From: an uncultured Kangiella sp.
Lineage (GTDB): Bacteria; Pseudomonadota; Gammaproteobacteria; Enterobacterales; Kangiellaceae
Length of the DNA stretch: 64,000 bases
Direction of reading: 5' to 3'
NCBI GenBank assembly: GCA_950096615.1
Contig: CATNCP010000001.1
Location: 62,001 to 126,000 of the forward strand
Part shown: one piece after another, positions 354-44,075 of the stretch
Layout of the letters: each line of letters starts with the position of its first letter
How positions within the stretch are numbered: position 1 is the stretch's first letter
Position numbers and translations under genes: made by a program
Notes under the pieces: generated by a model
Database searches by the model: none
Seen by the model: only the letters and a program-made list of their open reading frames with translations
Told to the model about the DNA's origin: nothing

Positions 354-3266
354 ATGAGACGTATGTTAATTAACGCAACTCACCACAATGAAGAGTTGCG
401 TGTTGCGATGGTCGATGGCCAACGCTTATATGATTTAGATATTGAGTTAGCAGGAAGAGAACAGAAAAAAGGAAACATTTATAAGGGTAAAGTTACCCGA
501 ATCGAACCTAGCTTGGAAGCTGCCTTTGTAGACTATGGCGCAGAACGTCATGGTTTCCTTCCGTTAAAAGAAGTTGCCCGTGAGTATATGCACAACCCTC
601 CTCACAAAGGCCGTCCTACCATCAAAGATGCCTTGAAAGAAGGCCAAGAAATCATAGTTCAGATTGATAAAGAGGAACGCGGCAATAAAGGTGCTGCGCT
701 TACTACTTCTGTCAGTTTGGCGGGTAGTTACCTAGTATTAATGCCTAACAACCCTCGTGCTGGCGGTATTTCACGTCGAATCGAAGGTGAAGAGCGCTCT
801 GACCTTAAGCAAATCATGGGCCAGCTCGCGGTACCAAAAGGTATGGGTTGCATCGTCAGAACGGCTGGAGTCGGTAAAAGCCTTGAAGAAATCAATTACG
901 ATTTCGGCTACTTGCTGGAATTCTGGAAGAACATCAAAGAAGTTTCAAACACTCGCCCTGCTCCTTTCTTAATCACTCAAGAGTCAGACGTGATTACTCG
1001 TGCGATTCGTGACTATTTACGTCCAGATATCGGTGAAATCATCGTCGATCGTAAAGAAGTTCATGATCGCATTAAAACTGAGTTGGGTTATCAGCGACCA
1101 GACTTCGTGAATCGAGTGAAGTTCTACAAAGACGAAATCCCTCTATTCAACCGTTACCAAGTCGAAAGCCAAATCGAAAGCGCTTTCCAGCGTGAAGTAC
1201 GCTTACCATCAGGTGGTTCGGTTGTTTTTGACCAAACCGAAGCATTGCTTTCTATTGATATCAACTCAGCCAAAGCGACAAAAGGCGGTGATATTGAAGA
1301 AACAGCATTACACACCAATAAAGAAGCTGCAGAAGAAATCGCGCGTCAATTACGTCTGCGTGATATTGGTGGCCTTATTGTTATCGACTTCATCGATATG
1401 GGACCTCCGCGCAATCAGCGCGAAGTGGAAAAAGTTTTAAAAGAGTCGGTTGCTCGAGATCGTGCACGTATTCAAATTGGTCGAATTTCGCGATTCGGGC
1501 TGCTTGAAATGTCACGTCAACGTTTACGCCCTTCTCTTGAAGAATCAAGCCAGCACGTATGTCCGCGCTGTAGTGGTTCTGGTGTTATTCGTGGTACTGA
1601 CTCATTGGCACTATCTATTCTTCGTTTGATGGAAGATGAAGCCATGAAAGAATCAACAGCTGAAGTACAAGCAGTACTGCCTGTTGAGGTAGCGACTTTC
1701 TTATTAAACGAAAAGCGTCGTAAGATTGAGCAAATCGAGAAGCGTCAAAAAGTTCGTTTAGTCGTTGTTCCAAACCCTCATATGGAAACACCTCACTACG
1801 AAGTGCTTCGCGTCAAAGGTGGTGAAACTCTTGAAGACAATAGCTACTCACTAATCGGTAAAGCTCCTGAAGTTGAGCTGGTAAAAAGCACAACTCAACC
1901 TGTGCAGCCGCTAGATGAGCCTGCTTTGAAAGGATTAAAGCACAGCACCCCTCCTCCTGCACCAAGCACCAAGCCGAAGAAAAAGAACAAGCCTAAGCAA
2001 GAAAAGCCAGGTTTATTCAAACGTCTTTGGACAGCTTTATTTGGTGATGACGAGAAAAAAGCTAAAGGTAAGGGCAACAATAAACACAGCAAAAACTATA
2101 AAGGCAAAGGTCGCCATGGTTCCGGTCGTCAAGACAATCGTAACCAAAACAATCGTCGCGGTAACTACAAAGGTAACCGTCGTCGCAATGATCGTCGCCA
2201 AGATAACCGTAACCAGGGTAATCAAAAGCAAGACTCTCGCCATCAGGATAAGCGCGGTCAAGACAATCGTAACAAACACAATGAGCAAGATAATCGCCAG
2301 CAAAAGCAAGGCCAGCAGAAAGGTCAACAGCAAAAAGGTGGTAATCGCCAGCAACAGGACCAAAAGCACAACAACCGCAATAAAAACCGCGGCCAGCAAA
2401 AAGGTCAGCAGCAACAGGCTCAACAACAAGTAGAGCAACGTCCGCCACGTAAGTCTCGTGCTGAACGCATGGAATCAGTGCAACAGCCTGCGGCGCAACA
2501 GAAACAAGCTGATAATAAGCAACAGCCTAATCCTCAAGAACAGGCTGCAAAGAGCAATAATCAAGATAAGCAACAGGCTAAGCAACAAAAACCTCAAGCG
2601 CAAGATAAGCAACAACAGCGCTCGAAGGCTAAACCTGAAGACATCATGGTTTATAAAGCTCATAAGTCGCTAGAAAGAACAGTGAGCGATGTTCTGAAAG
2701 ACGAGAACTTGCCTGAAGTTATTGAGAACCCAGTGGACAATCCTGCTGAGAACTCAGGGGAAGCTCCTGTTTCTAAAGAAACAAACTCCAAGAAGGCTGA
2801 GAGCGAAAAAGGCCCAGAGTCTCAGACGTCAGAAGTAAAAGAAGATAAGCCAACACCGAATCAGCCCCAGCAGCCTGAAGCTCGCGAAGGCGCTAGTCAG
2901 GACAAGCTTGACTCTGAAAAAGAAGCTCAGCCTAACCAAGCGACCCACAAGGAATCTGAGAAGATAACTGAGAAAGAAGTTAAGCAGGCAGAAACCTCTA
3001 AAGAACCAGCTTCTAGCGAAACTGCCTCCGAAGACAAAGCTTCCGAGGAAAAGATAGCCTCAGAAGCAGCGACTAAAAAGCCTGCTTCAAACGGTAACTT
3101 GCCTTCAAGCTCTAGTGCTCCAGCGAGCCGAGCAACCACGAAAAGCTCTATTGAGCCGATTGCGTTTACACCGAAGCCTCATAGCTTTGATGGCGCTGTA
3201 ACTCGCTCAATGGAAGATGCTTCACGTGAACATAGCTCGTCTGAAGCTGCAAAGACTACTTCTTAG
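354..3266 (+). CDS. rne: Ribonuclease E
   Basis: N-terminal [31 protein letters not shown] and [30 protein letters not shown] match RNase E; Zn-link [24 protein letters not shown] resembles the membrane-targeting helix; long disordered C-terminus. Confidence 0.98.
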
Positions 3267-3370
3267 TAAAAAAAAGCTCTCTAGCGAGTCCTTAGAGTAT
3301 ACTCTAGGGACTCGCAGCGCTCACGAATAGAAGTTGTCGCACAAGTTGTCGACACAAGAGTTTTACACTT

Positions 3371-3398
3371 AAAAAGCGGTATTAATTACCGCTTTTTT
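3371..3398. terminator. Bidirectional Rho-independent-like terminator between rne and the convergent phosphatase gene
   Basis: AAAAAGCGGT-attaatt-ACCGCTTTTTT inverted repeat with a T-tract on both strands. Confidence 0.85.
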
Positions 3399-3961
3399 CT
3401 TATCTCATCACTCTGAGAATTAATACGATAAAGCTGTTGATGAATTCGTTCATTATGGAACGTTACTCTAAACACGCTTCCATAATCTTTTTCGTTGAGC
3501 ATGATAACCGGTTCAGAAGACAGCTTCTGTCCTGCATAGGTTATATCAAAACTTCCACCAAGTGCTTTTATAATACCTGGTACTGTATTTGAGTGACCTA
3601 CAACTAACACCGTTTCACCACAGTGCTGCTGTTTGATCTTATGCACTAGCTTTTCAGTTTGTTTGGGATCATAGACGGACTTTTCCGTCTCAATAAACTC
3701 TAGTGTTTCATAGGTTCTTTTATAAGGTGTATAAAAACTATGGCTAGCTTCTTCAATTATAGGCAATTCAGCTAACGTTCTAGCATTCTTCTTACCAACC
3801 GAGTTTAGACTTGGATCTCGGGTTCCATCATCTGCTTTTTCTAAATGTCGTAACACAAAGACATCATAATCATTGCACCGACTCTCTTCTTCAAGAGCCA
3901 TCACTGTTGGCGACAAAACTATGGTGGCTAAACAGGCTGTAGCTGTTATTAATCGTCTCAT
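3386..3961 (-). CDS. Secreted histidine phosphatase (phosphoglycerate mutase-like) family protein
   Basis: Signal peptide-like N-terminus; RHLEKADDGTRDPSLNSVGKKNA and LVVGHSNTVPGI motifs. Confidence 0.85.
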   Translation of the reverse strand: MRRLITATACLATIVLSPTVMALEEESRCNDYDVFVLRHLEKADDGTRDPSLNSVGKKNARTLAELPIIEEASHSFYTPYKRTYETLEFIETEKSVYDPKQTEKLVHKIKQQHCGETVLVVGHSNTVPGIIKALGGSFDITYAGQKLSSEPVIMLNEKDYGSVFRVTFHNERIHQQLYRINSQSDEIRKKR

Positions 3962-38406: not shown

Positions 38407-39546
38407 ATGAGTAACATTATTGTGTTAGGTGCTGGTATGGTAGGAAGTGTCATCGCCAGAGATCTTTCTGAGAAACATGACGTCACTATTGCCGACATTG
38501 AGCCACAAACATTAAAGCTACTCAAAAAACGACTTCCATCAATCAATACTGAAGAAGTCAACGCACTGGATGCAGAAGCGTTAAACAATCTTTTACAACC
38601 CTTCGATATCGTGATTTGCGCAGTCCCCGGCAACTTGGGCTTTAAAGTCCTAAAAAATGTGATCGAAGCTGGAAAGAATGTAGTAGATATATCGTTCGCC
38701 GAAGAGAACTGTCTCGAACTCGATTACTTAGCAAAAAAGAACAATGTGACCGCGGTTATAGACTGCGGCGTTGCTCCTGGTATGGATAACCTCCTCCTAG
38801 GCTTTCTCAATACCAAAATCGAGGTTACTGACTTTGAGTGTTTTGTTGGCGGTTTACCAAAAACTCGTAGCAAGCCGTTCGAATACAAAGCTCCTTTCTC
38901 GCCTTTAGACGTTATCGCTGAATACGTTCGTCCCGTACATTACTTCGAGAATGGACGTGAACTCGTCAAAGAGCCGTTAACCGATCGTGAGCTGGTTGAA
39001 TTTGACCGAATTGGTACTTTAGAAGCTTTTAATACTGATGGCCTTCGTAGCTTGATCTACACCATGAGTCATATTCCTAATATGAAAGAAAAAACGCTAC
39101 GTTATCCTGGCCATGTCGAAGCTATTCGTACATTAAAACACAGCGGATTTTTTGACCAAGAACCGGTTACGGTCAATGGTATGGAAGTTAGCCCATTAGA
39201 ATTTACTTCAAAAGTTCTGATTAATGAGTGGAAGCTTAAACGTAAAGAAGAAGAGTTCACCATCATGCGCGTTAACATCCGTGGCATTGAAAGCGGTAAA
39301 CGCAAAGAATATATTTATGATCTGTATGACGAATACGACAGCATCAAGCAAGAAACCTCTATGGCAAGAACCACAGGCTTTACCGCCAATGCAGTAGCCA
39401 GCCTGATATTGAAAGATAAGTTTAATAAGATTGGGGTTTATGCACCTGAACATATCGGTGGGCACACAGATTGTTGCAAAACGGTGATTGACTACATGGA
39501 AGAACGTAAAGTACGGTATCGCCTAGAAGTGAATAGCTTGGATTAA
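38407..39546 (+). CDS. Saccharopine dehydrogenase-family protein, best described as L-lysine 6-dehydrogenase-like
   Basis: IIVLGAGMVGSVIARDL; DCGVAPGMDNLL; FDRIGTLEAFNTDG...KTLRYPGHVEAIRTL; MARTTGFTANAVASLI...GVYAPEHIG, resembling remembered Geobacillus LysDH motifs. Confidence 0.8.
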   Translation: MSNIIVLGAGMVGSVIARDLSEKHDVTIADIEPQTLKLLKKRLPSINTEEVNALDAEALNNLLQPFDIVICAVPGNLGFKVLKNVIEAGKNVVDISFAEENCLELDYLAKKNNVTAVIDCGVAPGMDNLLLGFLNTKIEVTDFECFVGGLPKTRSKPFEYKAPFSPLDVIAEYVRPVHYFENGRELVKEPLTDRELVEFDRIGTLEAFNTDGLRSLIYTMSHIPNMKEKTLRYPGHVEAIRTLKHSGFFDQEPVTVNGMEVSPLEFTSKVLINEWKLKRKEEEFTIMRVNIRGIESGKRKEYIYDLYDEYDSIKQETSMARTTGFTANAVASLILKDKFNKIGVYAPEHIGGHTDCCKTVIDYMEERKVRYRLEVNSLD

Positions 39547-39575
39547 ACCAAGTCTCAAGAATTATAAGGAGTTTT

Positions 39576-39815
39576 ATGAAACCACTTAGCGAAGAACGTG
39601 TTGAAGAAATTAAAGAGCATTTCAAGTTCTTTGATCGCGATGACAACGGACGAATTGATGTTGATGAATTTGGAGAGTTACTACAGGTGCTCTCTCCCGA
39701 CTCTGGAACGGAGCAGATTCACGAAGGCTTCTCTTTAATTGACACTGATGGTAGCGGTTACATTGAGTTTGAGGAGTTTTTGACTTGGTGGAAAACCTGC
39801 TGGTGGGAGTTTTAA
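39576..39815 (+). CDS. Small protein with two EF-hands
   Basis: Two canonical loops DRDDNGRIDVDE and DTDGSGYIEFEE; 79 aa; Trp-rich C-terminus WWKTCWWEF. Confidence 0.92.
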   Translation: MKPLSEERVEEIKEHFKFFDRDDNGRIDVDEFGELLQVLSPDSGTEQIHEGFSLIDTDGSGYIEFEEFLTWWKTCWWEF

Positions 39816-39834: not shown

Positions 39835-39870
39835 ATCCTCTCTAATGATTTATGTTGGAGAGGATCTTTT
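39835..39870 (+). terminator. Probable terminator after the EF-hand gene
   Basis: ATCCTCTC...GAGAGGAT 8-bp perfect stem followed by CTTTT. Confidence 0.6.
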
Positions 39871-40134: not shown

Positions 40135-41655
40135 ATGAATTTTTTGAACGAGTTAGGTATTGAAGACATCAACCAATCTGCGAGTTGGGGTGAAGGCTAT
40201 ACTGATACTCAAGATGCCGGTGTTATTGAGTCCATTAACCCAGCTACAGGCGAGCTTATTGCAAAAGTTAACGCAACGTCTGAGAAAGATTACGACAAAG
40301 TTATGCAGCAAGCGGAACAAGCTTTCGCTGAATGGCGCATGGTCCCTGCCCCTGTTCGTGGCGAGTTAGTTCGCCAAATGGCTGACGCATTGCGTGAGCA
40401 CAAAGACGCCCTTGGTAGCCTAGTTAGCGCCGAAATGGGCAAAATTAAAGCTGAAGGTGATGGTGAAGTTCAGGAAATGATCGACATGGCAGACTTTGCC
40501 GTCGGCCAATCTCGTATGCTCTACGGCAAAACCATGCATTCTGAACGCCCTGAGCATCGCATGTATGAACAATGGCACCCTCTTGGTGTTACGGGAGTCA
40601 TATCTGCCTTCAACTTCCCGGTAGCTGTCTGGTCTTGGAACGCCTTTGTGGCCGCTGTTTGCGGCAACACTGTGGTGTGGAAGCCATCACCGAAAACACC
40701 ACTGACTGGTGTTGCAGTACAGAATATTTGTAATAAGGTGCTTGAAAAGAACGGTTATAAGGGCATCTTCTGCTTATTTATTGACGGTGAAGAAAACAAG
40801 CTGTCGCAGAAATTTATTGAAGACCAGCGCGTTAAGAAAATGTCGTTCACTGGCTCCAGCGAAGTTGGTCGCATGGTCGGCATGAAAGTTGCTGAGCGTA
40901 TGGGTAAGTCGCTTCTTGAGCTGTCTGGTAATAATGCCCTAATCCTTGATGAAACGGCGGATCTCGACTTGGCAGTGCCAGCTGTTGTTTTCGGTGCTGT
41001 CGGCACTGCAGGACAACGTTGCACATCGACGCGTCGTTTAATTGTGCATAAGAGCGTTGCTGATGAAGTCATACCAACCATTGCAAATGCTTATCAGCAA
41101 GTTAAAATCGGCAACCCATTAGACTCAGACACCTTAATGGGCCCGCTGATTGATGAACAAGCAGTTCAAAATTTTGAAAATACTATTGCTAAGGCAAAAG
41201 AAGCCGGCGGCGAAGTATTAGCTGGCGGTAAAAGAGTCGATGGCAAAGGTCATTTTGTTGAGCCTACCTTTATACGTGCAGAAAACCACTGGGACATTGT
41301 TCAAACAGAAACTTTTGCCCCGATTCTGTATGTAATGACGTACGACACAATTGACGAAGCTTTAGCCATGCAGAACCACTCTAAAGCAGGCCTTTCATCA
41401 GCAATCTTTACGCGAGATATAAAAAATGCGGAAAGATTTTTGTCAGCAGTTGGTTCTGACTGTGGTATTGCAAACGTTAATATCGGCACTTCCGGTGCTG
41501 AGATTGGCGGTGCTTTCGGCGGCGAAAAAGAGACTGGTGGCGGACGTGAAGCTGGCTCTGATGCTTGGAAAGCTTACATGCGTCGTCAGACAAACACGAT
41601 TTTCTGGGGAGATACTCCAGTACTCGCTCAAGGCATTAAGTTCGACTTGGGCTAA
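40135..41655 (+). CDS. ALDH7-like aldehyde dehydrogenase, putative alpha-aminoadipic semialdehyde dehydrogenase
   Basis: [78 protein letters not shown]. Confidence 0.88.
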
Positions 41656-41721: not shown

Positions 41722-42756
41722 ATGGCGGTTTTTAACCTTCGCGCCTATGACGATCACGAACAAATCGTATTTTGCCGTGACGTAGAGTCAGGGCTTAAAG
41801 CAATTATTTGTGTCCACAATACTAACCTTGGCCCTGCGGTCGGTGGCTGTCGTATGTGGGATTATAATTCTGATGAAGGCGCATTGATCGACGCACTTCG
41901 CCTTTCACGAGGCATGACGTATAAAAATGCTATGGCTGGCCTTAATATGGGCGGCGGCAAATCAGTGATTATTGGTAACTCTAAGACTATGAAGTCTGAA
42001 GAGTTGTTCCGTGCTTTCGGACGTTTTGTCGATAAGCTAAGCGGTAAGTACATCACAGCTGAAGACGTGGGCATTAACCCACAAGACATGGCTGTAGTGA
42101 ACAAAGAAACGGACCACGTACTAGGTCTTGAAGGTAAGTCTGGTGACCCTTCTCCTGTTACAGCTTATGGTGTATTCACTGGTCTTAAAGCGGCAGTCAA
42201 CCACCGTTTAGGCCGTGATGACCTGGATGGCTTGAAAGTATCTGTTCAAGGATTAGGTCATGTGGGTTATTACCTGTGCCGTCATTTGCACGAGCAAGGT
42301 GCGAAGCTTGTGGTTACTGATATCAATAAAGAAAGCGTTGATCGCGTGGTTGATGAGTTCGGTGCTACCGCAGTAGACACTGATGACATCTATCATCAAG
42401 AAGTAGACGTTTACGCTCCTTGTGCACTAGGCGCTACTATTAACGATAATACGCTTCCTAAGATTCAAGCTTCAGTTATTGCTGGTGCTGCGAATAACCA
42501 GCTTGCTGAAGATCGTCACGGTGATATCTTGATGCAAAAAGGCATCTTGTATGCGCCTGACTACGTCATCAATGCTGGCGGTATCATCAATGTTTCATTT
42601 GAAGAAAGCTATGACCAAGCGGCTGCGCTGAAGAAAGTCGATGAAATCTATGGCACATTGACTGAAGTGTTCGATGCATCGAAATCATCAGGCCGTCCGA
42701 CTAACGTCATTGCAGACGAAATCGCACGTCAACGTGTAGCGGACGCTAAAAAGTAA
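41722..42756 (+). CDS. Leucine dehydrogenase (Glu/Leu/Phe/Val dehydrogenase family)
   Basis: [44 protein letters not shown]. Confidence 0.93.
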
Positions 42757-42833: not shown

Positions 42834-44075
42834 TTAGTCAATCGCATACTGGAAATACATACGATAAGCCGTTGACCAGATTGGGAACTCTACTTGCATC
42901 AAGAAACAGGTATATTCATCACGGTCACATTGAGACATCGAGAAAAGTTCATCGACTAATTCATTAGCCATTGGATAACCAAGTTTTTGGCTAAAATCAT
43001 CATTAGGTCCCGCTAAACCAAGATCTGCTTCATCATGGAATCGATCAAACCACAAAGAGTCTGGGCTATTGATAATATTAATCAACTGAGATCCACTAGA
43101 ATAAATCCCCGCGTTCGCCACACTTCTCATTGCATACTTTTTGTCTAAAAAGCACATGATGTACAAGTTTTTAGTTGGATATCGAGTATGCGCGCCCATG
43201 CAGCTAGCTTTTTTACCACCATGGAATGGACCTAACTGCTCTTTCGGATAATTCTTAATAACGCCGATGTTGGTTTCTGAGTTTTTATCCGTTTCAGTCG
43301 GTACCACCATCCAGTTTTCGCCATGGGTGAAGTCTTTAATGTGGTCTATGATTGAAGGGCTGGTTAACTCGCGAATCAGAGAGACATAGCTTAAGTCATC
43401 TCCCTTTTGCTCGCCTTGAGAAATAATATCAGGCTTTTCGAAGTCTACGGTATTTTCGCCTGGCACGACTGGAACCATGACCGGTCTCGAGTTCTCAGAG
43501 GCGCGACAACCTTCGTAATAACTTAACGTAAACTGCTGAAGATATTTGGAGTCATGATCATTTTCTTTGATGATGCATGCAAAAAATGAGCTTTCCATCG
43601 ACTCACCAGTAACCATTTTAGCCGCCTCATAAAGTGCGGCACGGCCATCGCGTTTAGAACCGGTGCTCTCGGTGCTTGCCGAATTGGAATCTTGTATTAA
43701 TTTTTTAAGTGCCGAATGGCTTCGTGAGTATTCGTAAATTAGGTTTTCAAAACGTTGAACTACCGCTCTCGCCTCATCCACTAATTTAGGATTGATGCTC
43801 TTTTCTTCCGCTAAGTCAATAAAGCCTTTTAAGCCAGCTGGTCCAGGAAGTGAATTAACCACCTCTAGACCGTCTACAGCTTTATTAATCGTCTCTACCA
43901 TTCTTTGACAGGTAGACTTGTTAGCGGTCAACCACTTCGACATACCTGTGATGGTTTTAGCATGATTAGGAAAATCTTCTACAAGATTCGCTAAACCATT
44001 TTTAATGCGTTCTCCTTCACGCCCAATAAGGGATAGTTCCTTACGAGATAAAGTCTTACTCACGGTTTTCTCCAC
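42834..44075 (-). CDS. Hypothetical protein with a possible HTH-like N-terminus
   Basis: 413 aa; ITGMSKWLTANKSTCQRMVETINKAVDGLEVVNSLPGPAGLKGF reads like a small helical DNA-binding segment; no domain name assigned. Confidence 0.6.
   Translation of the reverse strand: MEKTVSKTLSRKELSLIGREGERIKNGLANLVEDFPNHAKTITGMSKWLTANKSTCQRMVETINKAVDGLEVVNSLPGPAGLKGFIDLAEEKSINPKLVDEARAVVQRFENLIYEYSRSHSALKKLIQDSNSASTESTGSKRDGRAALYEAAKMVTGESMESSFFACIIKENDHDSKYLQQFTLSYYEGCRASENSRPVMVPVVPGENTVDFEKPDIISQGEQKGDDLSYVSLIRELTSPSIIDHIKDFTHGENWMVVPTETDKNSETNIGVIKNYPKEQLGPFHGGKKASCMGAHTRYPTKNLYIMCFLDKKYAMRSVANAGIYSSGSQLINIINSPDSLWFDRFHDEADLGLAGPNDDFSQKLGYPMANELVDELFSMSQCDRDEYTCFLMQVEFPIWSTAYRMYFQYAID

Follow-up and report, generated by a model that had tools for sequence, protein, structure and literature searches.

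Does a small EF-hand gene standing directly behind a gene for a putative lysine dehydrogenase encode a Ca2+ regulator of that enzyme, or a protein with another partner? The locus lies in an uncultured Kangiella sp., within the 64,000-nt stretch of contig CATNCP010000001.1 analysed here (the window), and a preliminary description of it had suggested that a Ca2+ sensor is linked to this enzyme.

The EF-hand gene and its metabolic setting

The gene occupies positions 39576–39815 of the window (+ strand) and encodes 79 aa plus stop. Translation and Pfam analysis confirmed the features first described, namely two canonical Ca2+ loops, DRDDNGRIDVDE (residues 20–31, 39633–39668, +) and DTDGSGYIEFEE (residues 56–67, 39741–39776, +), and the C-terminus WWKTCWWEF (residues 71–79, 39786–39812, +), which alignment and structural modelling place on the exit helix of EF-hand 2. 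Five Pfam EF-hand models scored above cut-off, with EF-hand_7 at 53.8 bits against a cut-off of 30, and the protein displays the helix-loop-helix pairs, Asp/Asn/Ser at loop positions 1, 3 and 5, and Glu at position 12 that define EF-hands. Sequence comparison indicates that the gene is real and under strong purifying selection. Codon differences from the nearest orthologue (L002) comprise 24 synonymous and 1 non-synonymous changes, those from the next (L003) 32 and 8, and differences from orthologues fall mostly at third codon positions. No second copy was found in the same genome.

A spacer of 29 nt separates the stop codon of the dehydrogenase gene from the EF-hand gene, with a ribosome-binding site, AAGGAG (39566–39571, +), ahead of the ATG; the motif recurs in front of the orthologues L002, L003 and L005. 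On the 3′ side is a terminator-like 12-bp hairpin (39835–39865, +; −18.1 kcal/mol, z = −3.2) more stable than all 200 shuffled sequences (equalled by 0/200). Transcription termination at this hairpin is likely but not certain, because the T-tract is short (CTTTTAG) and a consensus terminator scan made no call. The close spacing and the hairpin had both been pointed out previously, and our results support the accompanying proposal that the EF-hand gene is probably co-transcribed with the dehydrogenase gene.

The dehydrogenase gene itself (38407–39546, +) encodes a 379-aa enzyme of the saccharopine/lysine-dehydrogenase family (PF16653/PF03435). Its product reaches no NCBIfam equivalog cut-off; among solved structures, PH1688 (3abi, 214 bits), an L-lysine dehydrogenase, is by a wide margin the closest relative, and by sequence the product is probably a lysine 6-dehydrogenase. 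Beyond the EF-hand gene lie genes for a 506-aa L-piperidine-6-carboxylate dehydrogenase (40135–41655, +; NF050084, 772.8 bits against a cut-off of 730), which catalyses the next step of lysine breakdown, and a 344-aa enzyme of the Glu/Leu/Phe/Val dehydrogenase family (41722–42756, +; PF02812 and PF00208). The lysine catabolic cluster named in the preliminary description is a fair designation, because the 38407 product is closest to PH1688 and the 40135 product exceeds the L-piperidine-6-carboxylate dehydrogenase cut-off. Further along, a 413-aa ORF (42834–44075, −) between the leucine-dehydrogenase-like gene and speD has no Pfam, NCBIfam or PADLOC match; an ORF of equal length occurs at the same place in K. 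taiwanensis (L029, 9261–10502).

A narrow family with a conserved Trp tail

The closest named relatives of the EF-hand protein are from Kangiella taiwanensis (90% identity), K. shandongensis (72%) and K. spongicola (71%), and a scan of genome contigs with the protein returned three Kangiella species, one distant EF-hand and nothing else. Among 41 close genomes, 26 carried the gene at E ≤ 0.001, and for 25 of these the match reached E ≤ 7e-23; across the order, 52 of the 395 genomes sampled had it at E ≤ 1e-8. When 369 genomes were drawn evenly from the class, one additional full-length member came to light, in the genome G402; the remaining new hits were weaker, shorter EF-hands that do not extend to the last residues of the tail. 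A sample of the phylum added no other full-length member from beyond the order. The Trp-tailed EF-hand family is real but narrow, comprising Kangiellaceae, three other families of the order, and G402 within the class.

Among curated families (Pfam, NCBIfam and PHROGs), nothing beyond generic EF-hand models names the protein. Its match to the XopAW family (NF041410) covers the EF-hand region only, at 31 bits against a curated cut-off of 120. A mobile-element or phage origin was rejected upon finding no match in phage and plasmid collections, IMG/VR or PHROGs, as was a role in defence, for which PADLOC gave nothing. Literature searches returned no paper joining 'EF-hand' and 'Kangiella', and nothing relevant for the Trp tail or for an EF-hand paired with saccharopine/lysine dehydrogenase.

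Twenty diverse members from five families share the invariant residues F16, F19, D20, D22, I27, E31, F32, L35, P41, G51, F52, D56, I63, F65, E67, F68, W71, W72, W76 and W77, with D20, D22, I27 and E31 belonging to loop 1 and D56, I63, F65 and E67 to loop 2. At about 50% identity across these members, the Trp tail is conserved to the same degree as the Ca2+ ligands, and the signature W-W-x3-W-W-[EQ]-[YF] on the last helix is found in every member read. Of the striking Trp/Cys tail singled out in the preliminary description, the four Trp residues therefore stand, being invariant, but Cys75 is not conserved; position 75 may be C, G, S, A or T, and a redox or metal role for this residue was rejected on that ground. 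Only the G402 protein extends past the Trp tail, with polar residues. Replacements of the Gly at loop position 6 were observed in a few members (T in loop 2 of L012 and L018, N in loop 1 of L022 and L023), and may weaken one Ca2+ site in each.

Fold and known relatives

Residues 4–76 align without gaps to the calmodulin N-lobe (phmmer, chain 1y6w). W71, W72 and W76 fall on calmodulin M71, M72 and M76, which help line the target-binding face. The AlphaFold2 model (mean pLDDT 82, pTM 0.73) has four helices, the last spanning residues 65–78, and Foldseek matches it to calmodulin and centrin N-domains. The predicted fold is that of one calmodulin N-lobe. Loop positions and the four-helix fold are common to the protein and the calmodulin N-lobe (1y6w, 3ucw), whereas the protein is bacterial, has Trp for Met at 71, 72 and 76 and G51 for Met, and with 79 aa forms a single lobe in place of the two lobes and four EF-hands of calmodulin. 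The N-terminus shows no hydrophobic stretch, which makes a cytoplasmic location reasonable; together with the N-lobe alignment, this agrees with the original view of a calmodulin-like, probably cytoplasmic protein.

The best isolated N-domain matches to the model are Mg2+/Mn2+-bound or apo closed forms of calmodulin (TM 0.72–0.79, 1.8–3.0 Å), while the Ca2+-loaded N-domains 2roa, 2ro8 and 2llo fit less well (TM about 0.5). The closed form of the model is weak evidence about switching, because AlphaFold2 places no ions and its input consisted of four close sequences only.

Of the proteins described so far, CSE (Ca2+ Sensor EF-hand, asr1131) of filamentous cyanobacteria comes closest as an analogue. 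It too is a small bacterial protein, a sensor encoded by a 234-bp gene, with two putative EF-hands and a conformational change on Ca2+ binding (PMC7065334); the two proteins are likened by gene size and domain count alone. EfhP (PA4107) of Pseudomonas also has two canonical EF-hands and becomes more hydrophobic with Ca2+, but it is larger and carries a signal peptide, and is probably periplasmic (PMC9132961). The Kangiella protein shows no hydrophobic N-terminus that would place it with the signal-peptide-bearing, periplasmic EfhP family.

Proposed role of the Trp tail

To judge from its canonical loops, the protein should bind Ca2+ at both sites. From the analogy with calmodulin and EfhP, we infer that Ca2+ would open the four-helix lobe and expose a Trp face on the last helix (W71, W72, W76 and W77), and that this face would dock a partner, be it a different protein or a further copy of the EF-hand protein. 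We hypothesize, with a probability of roughly 0.55, that the protein is a small cytoplasmic one-lobe EF-hand Ca2+ sensor, with a Trp face for a partner other than lysine dehydrogenase specifically.

An unlikely competitor is a cytosolic Ca2+ buffer that has no partner and in which the Trp residues merely pack the lobe. The protein is small and strongly acidic, with a pI near 4.2 and a charge near −14; its loops are canonical and no partner gene is conserved, and the bacterial cytosolic EF-hand proteins calerythrin, which has four EF-hand motifs rather than two, and CabB are regarded as buffers (PMC10574481). The invariant G51, in place of M51 of calmodulin, could also let a Trp pack inwards. 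However, buffering would not call for four Trp residues kept invariant on a single short helix in proteins about 50% identical, three of them at positions that in calmodulin belong to the target-binding face.

We give rather less credence to a Ca2+-dependent membrane-associating protein whose last helix enters the membrane interface. While the C-terminus is Trp-rich and helix-forming with an aromatic last residue, the high negative charge, the few basic tail residues available for acidic lipids, the lack of a lipid attachment site and the polar residues after the motif in G402 all argue against it.

Gene neighbourhoods and the link to the dehydrogenase

Conservation of the gene pair had been put forward as a check on the link between the two proteins, and it holds inside Kangiellaceae but not beyond. 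The dehydrogenase gene lies upstream of the EF-hand gene on the same strand in 33/33 Kangiellaceae genomes with the EF-hand gene (18 of the genus and 15 others). The two are adjacent, within about 110 nt, in 28 of these and one gene apart in five, spacing having been determined for the first 23. In the five (L011, L012, L017, L018 and L019), 629–651 nt with a long open frame intervene. The intervening gene of L018 (884–1459), the copy run against Pfam, is PRiA4_ORF3-like; the open frames of L011, L012, L017 and L019 are similar in length. Mfd, CsiV, ALDH and LeuDH, the other members of the block, are likewise conserved.

Two Kangiellaceae genomes (G354 and G380, 92–93% complete) have lost the EF-hand gene and kept the dehydrogenase cluster. 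Both carry the dehydrogenase, aldehyde dehydrogenase and leucine-dehydrogenase-like genes on one contig, with the EF-hand gene cleanly absent behind the dehydrogenase, where about 20–70 nt to the next gene leave no room for it, and no copy found elsewhere in either genome. G388 was left out of these absence cases, as its contig ends at the critical place. A convergent DUF4826 gene lies behind the dehydrogenase gene in the two genomes (L093, about 3054–3521; L094, 2477–2962; Pfam assignment from L094 only).

Outside Kangiellaceae the EF-hand gene has other neighbours. In one family (f7), it stands closely behind a UPF0176/rhodanese (TrhO-like) gene at 9 of the 11 loci read and behind a di-haem oxidoreductase gene at the other two. 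In the f7 genus g92 (L076, L077) the upstream gene encodes a protein of 997–998 aa, in which di-haem oxidoreductase and F5/8 type C domains were found in L077, the only copy run. Elsewhere, the EF-hand gene follows nusB, thiL and pgpA (family f13, 3/3), diverges from an M14 carboxypeptidase gene (family f4, 2/2), or has an alaX-like gene directly upstream (G402), the names nusB and alaX being assigned by reading the sequences. A saccharopine-dehydrogenase gene at the f4 loci (L084, L085) was considered as the same pairing and rejected, being 28% identical and on the other strand with the carboxypeptidase gene between. The EF-hand gene is a self-contained unit, which closes operons that differ from family to family.

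These observations bear on whether the protein is, at least in Kangiellaceae, dedicated to regulating the neighbouring lysine dehydrogenase in a Ca2+-dependent way, which we now consider improbable. Same-strand adjacency in 28 of the 33 genomes, with a single gene between in the remainder, speaks for such a role. Against it, the same protein and tail occur without a dehydrogenase neighbour in other families, G354 and G380 retain all three enzyme genes without the EF-hand gene, and an unrelated gene separates the pair in five genomes. The surrounding block is conserved too, so adjacency follows from ordinary synteny. The strict co-occurrence with the dehydrogenase gene expected of a dedicated subunit or regulator is not seen in these genomes. 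The sensor tied to the dehydrogenase, as first proposed, is thus not supported: because neighbours differ outside Kangiellaceae and the dehydrogenase cluster exists without the EF-hand gene, the pairing amounts to synteny at the level of the family, and the two genes do not make up a dedicated regulatory couple. Because the pairing is strict inside Kangiellaceae, the protein may nonetheless have a secondary, family-specific use there.

A lanthanide-binding protein of the lanmodulin type, to which a small bacterial EF-hand protein might be compared, is highly implausible, since lanmodulin is periplasmic and defined by Pro at position 2 of its EF loops, whereas the present loops (DRDD..., DTDG...) have no Pro there, the protein has no signal peptide, and no gene for a lanthanide-dependent enzyme adjoins it.

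Implications

Beyond the one-lobe sensor preferred here, we tentatively suggest, at odds clearly short of even, that these proteins form a family of bacterial one-lobe Ca2+ sensors not described so far. Its invariant W-W-x3-W-W-[EQ]-aromatic tail would act as a docking or dimerisation helix gated by Ca2+, and the partner would be a single conserved, unlinked one shared by every gammaproteobacterial lineage in which the family occurs. The protein would matter more were it truly a regulator of lysine catabolism, and the comparative evidence is against this. The case for Ca2+ signalling in the bacterial cytoplasm is still poorly established, and the list of true sensors is short. A minimal sensor of one lobe that carries its own Trp reporters and is conserved in several families would offer an easy test object for an intracellular bacterial Ca2+ switch.
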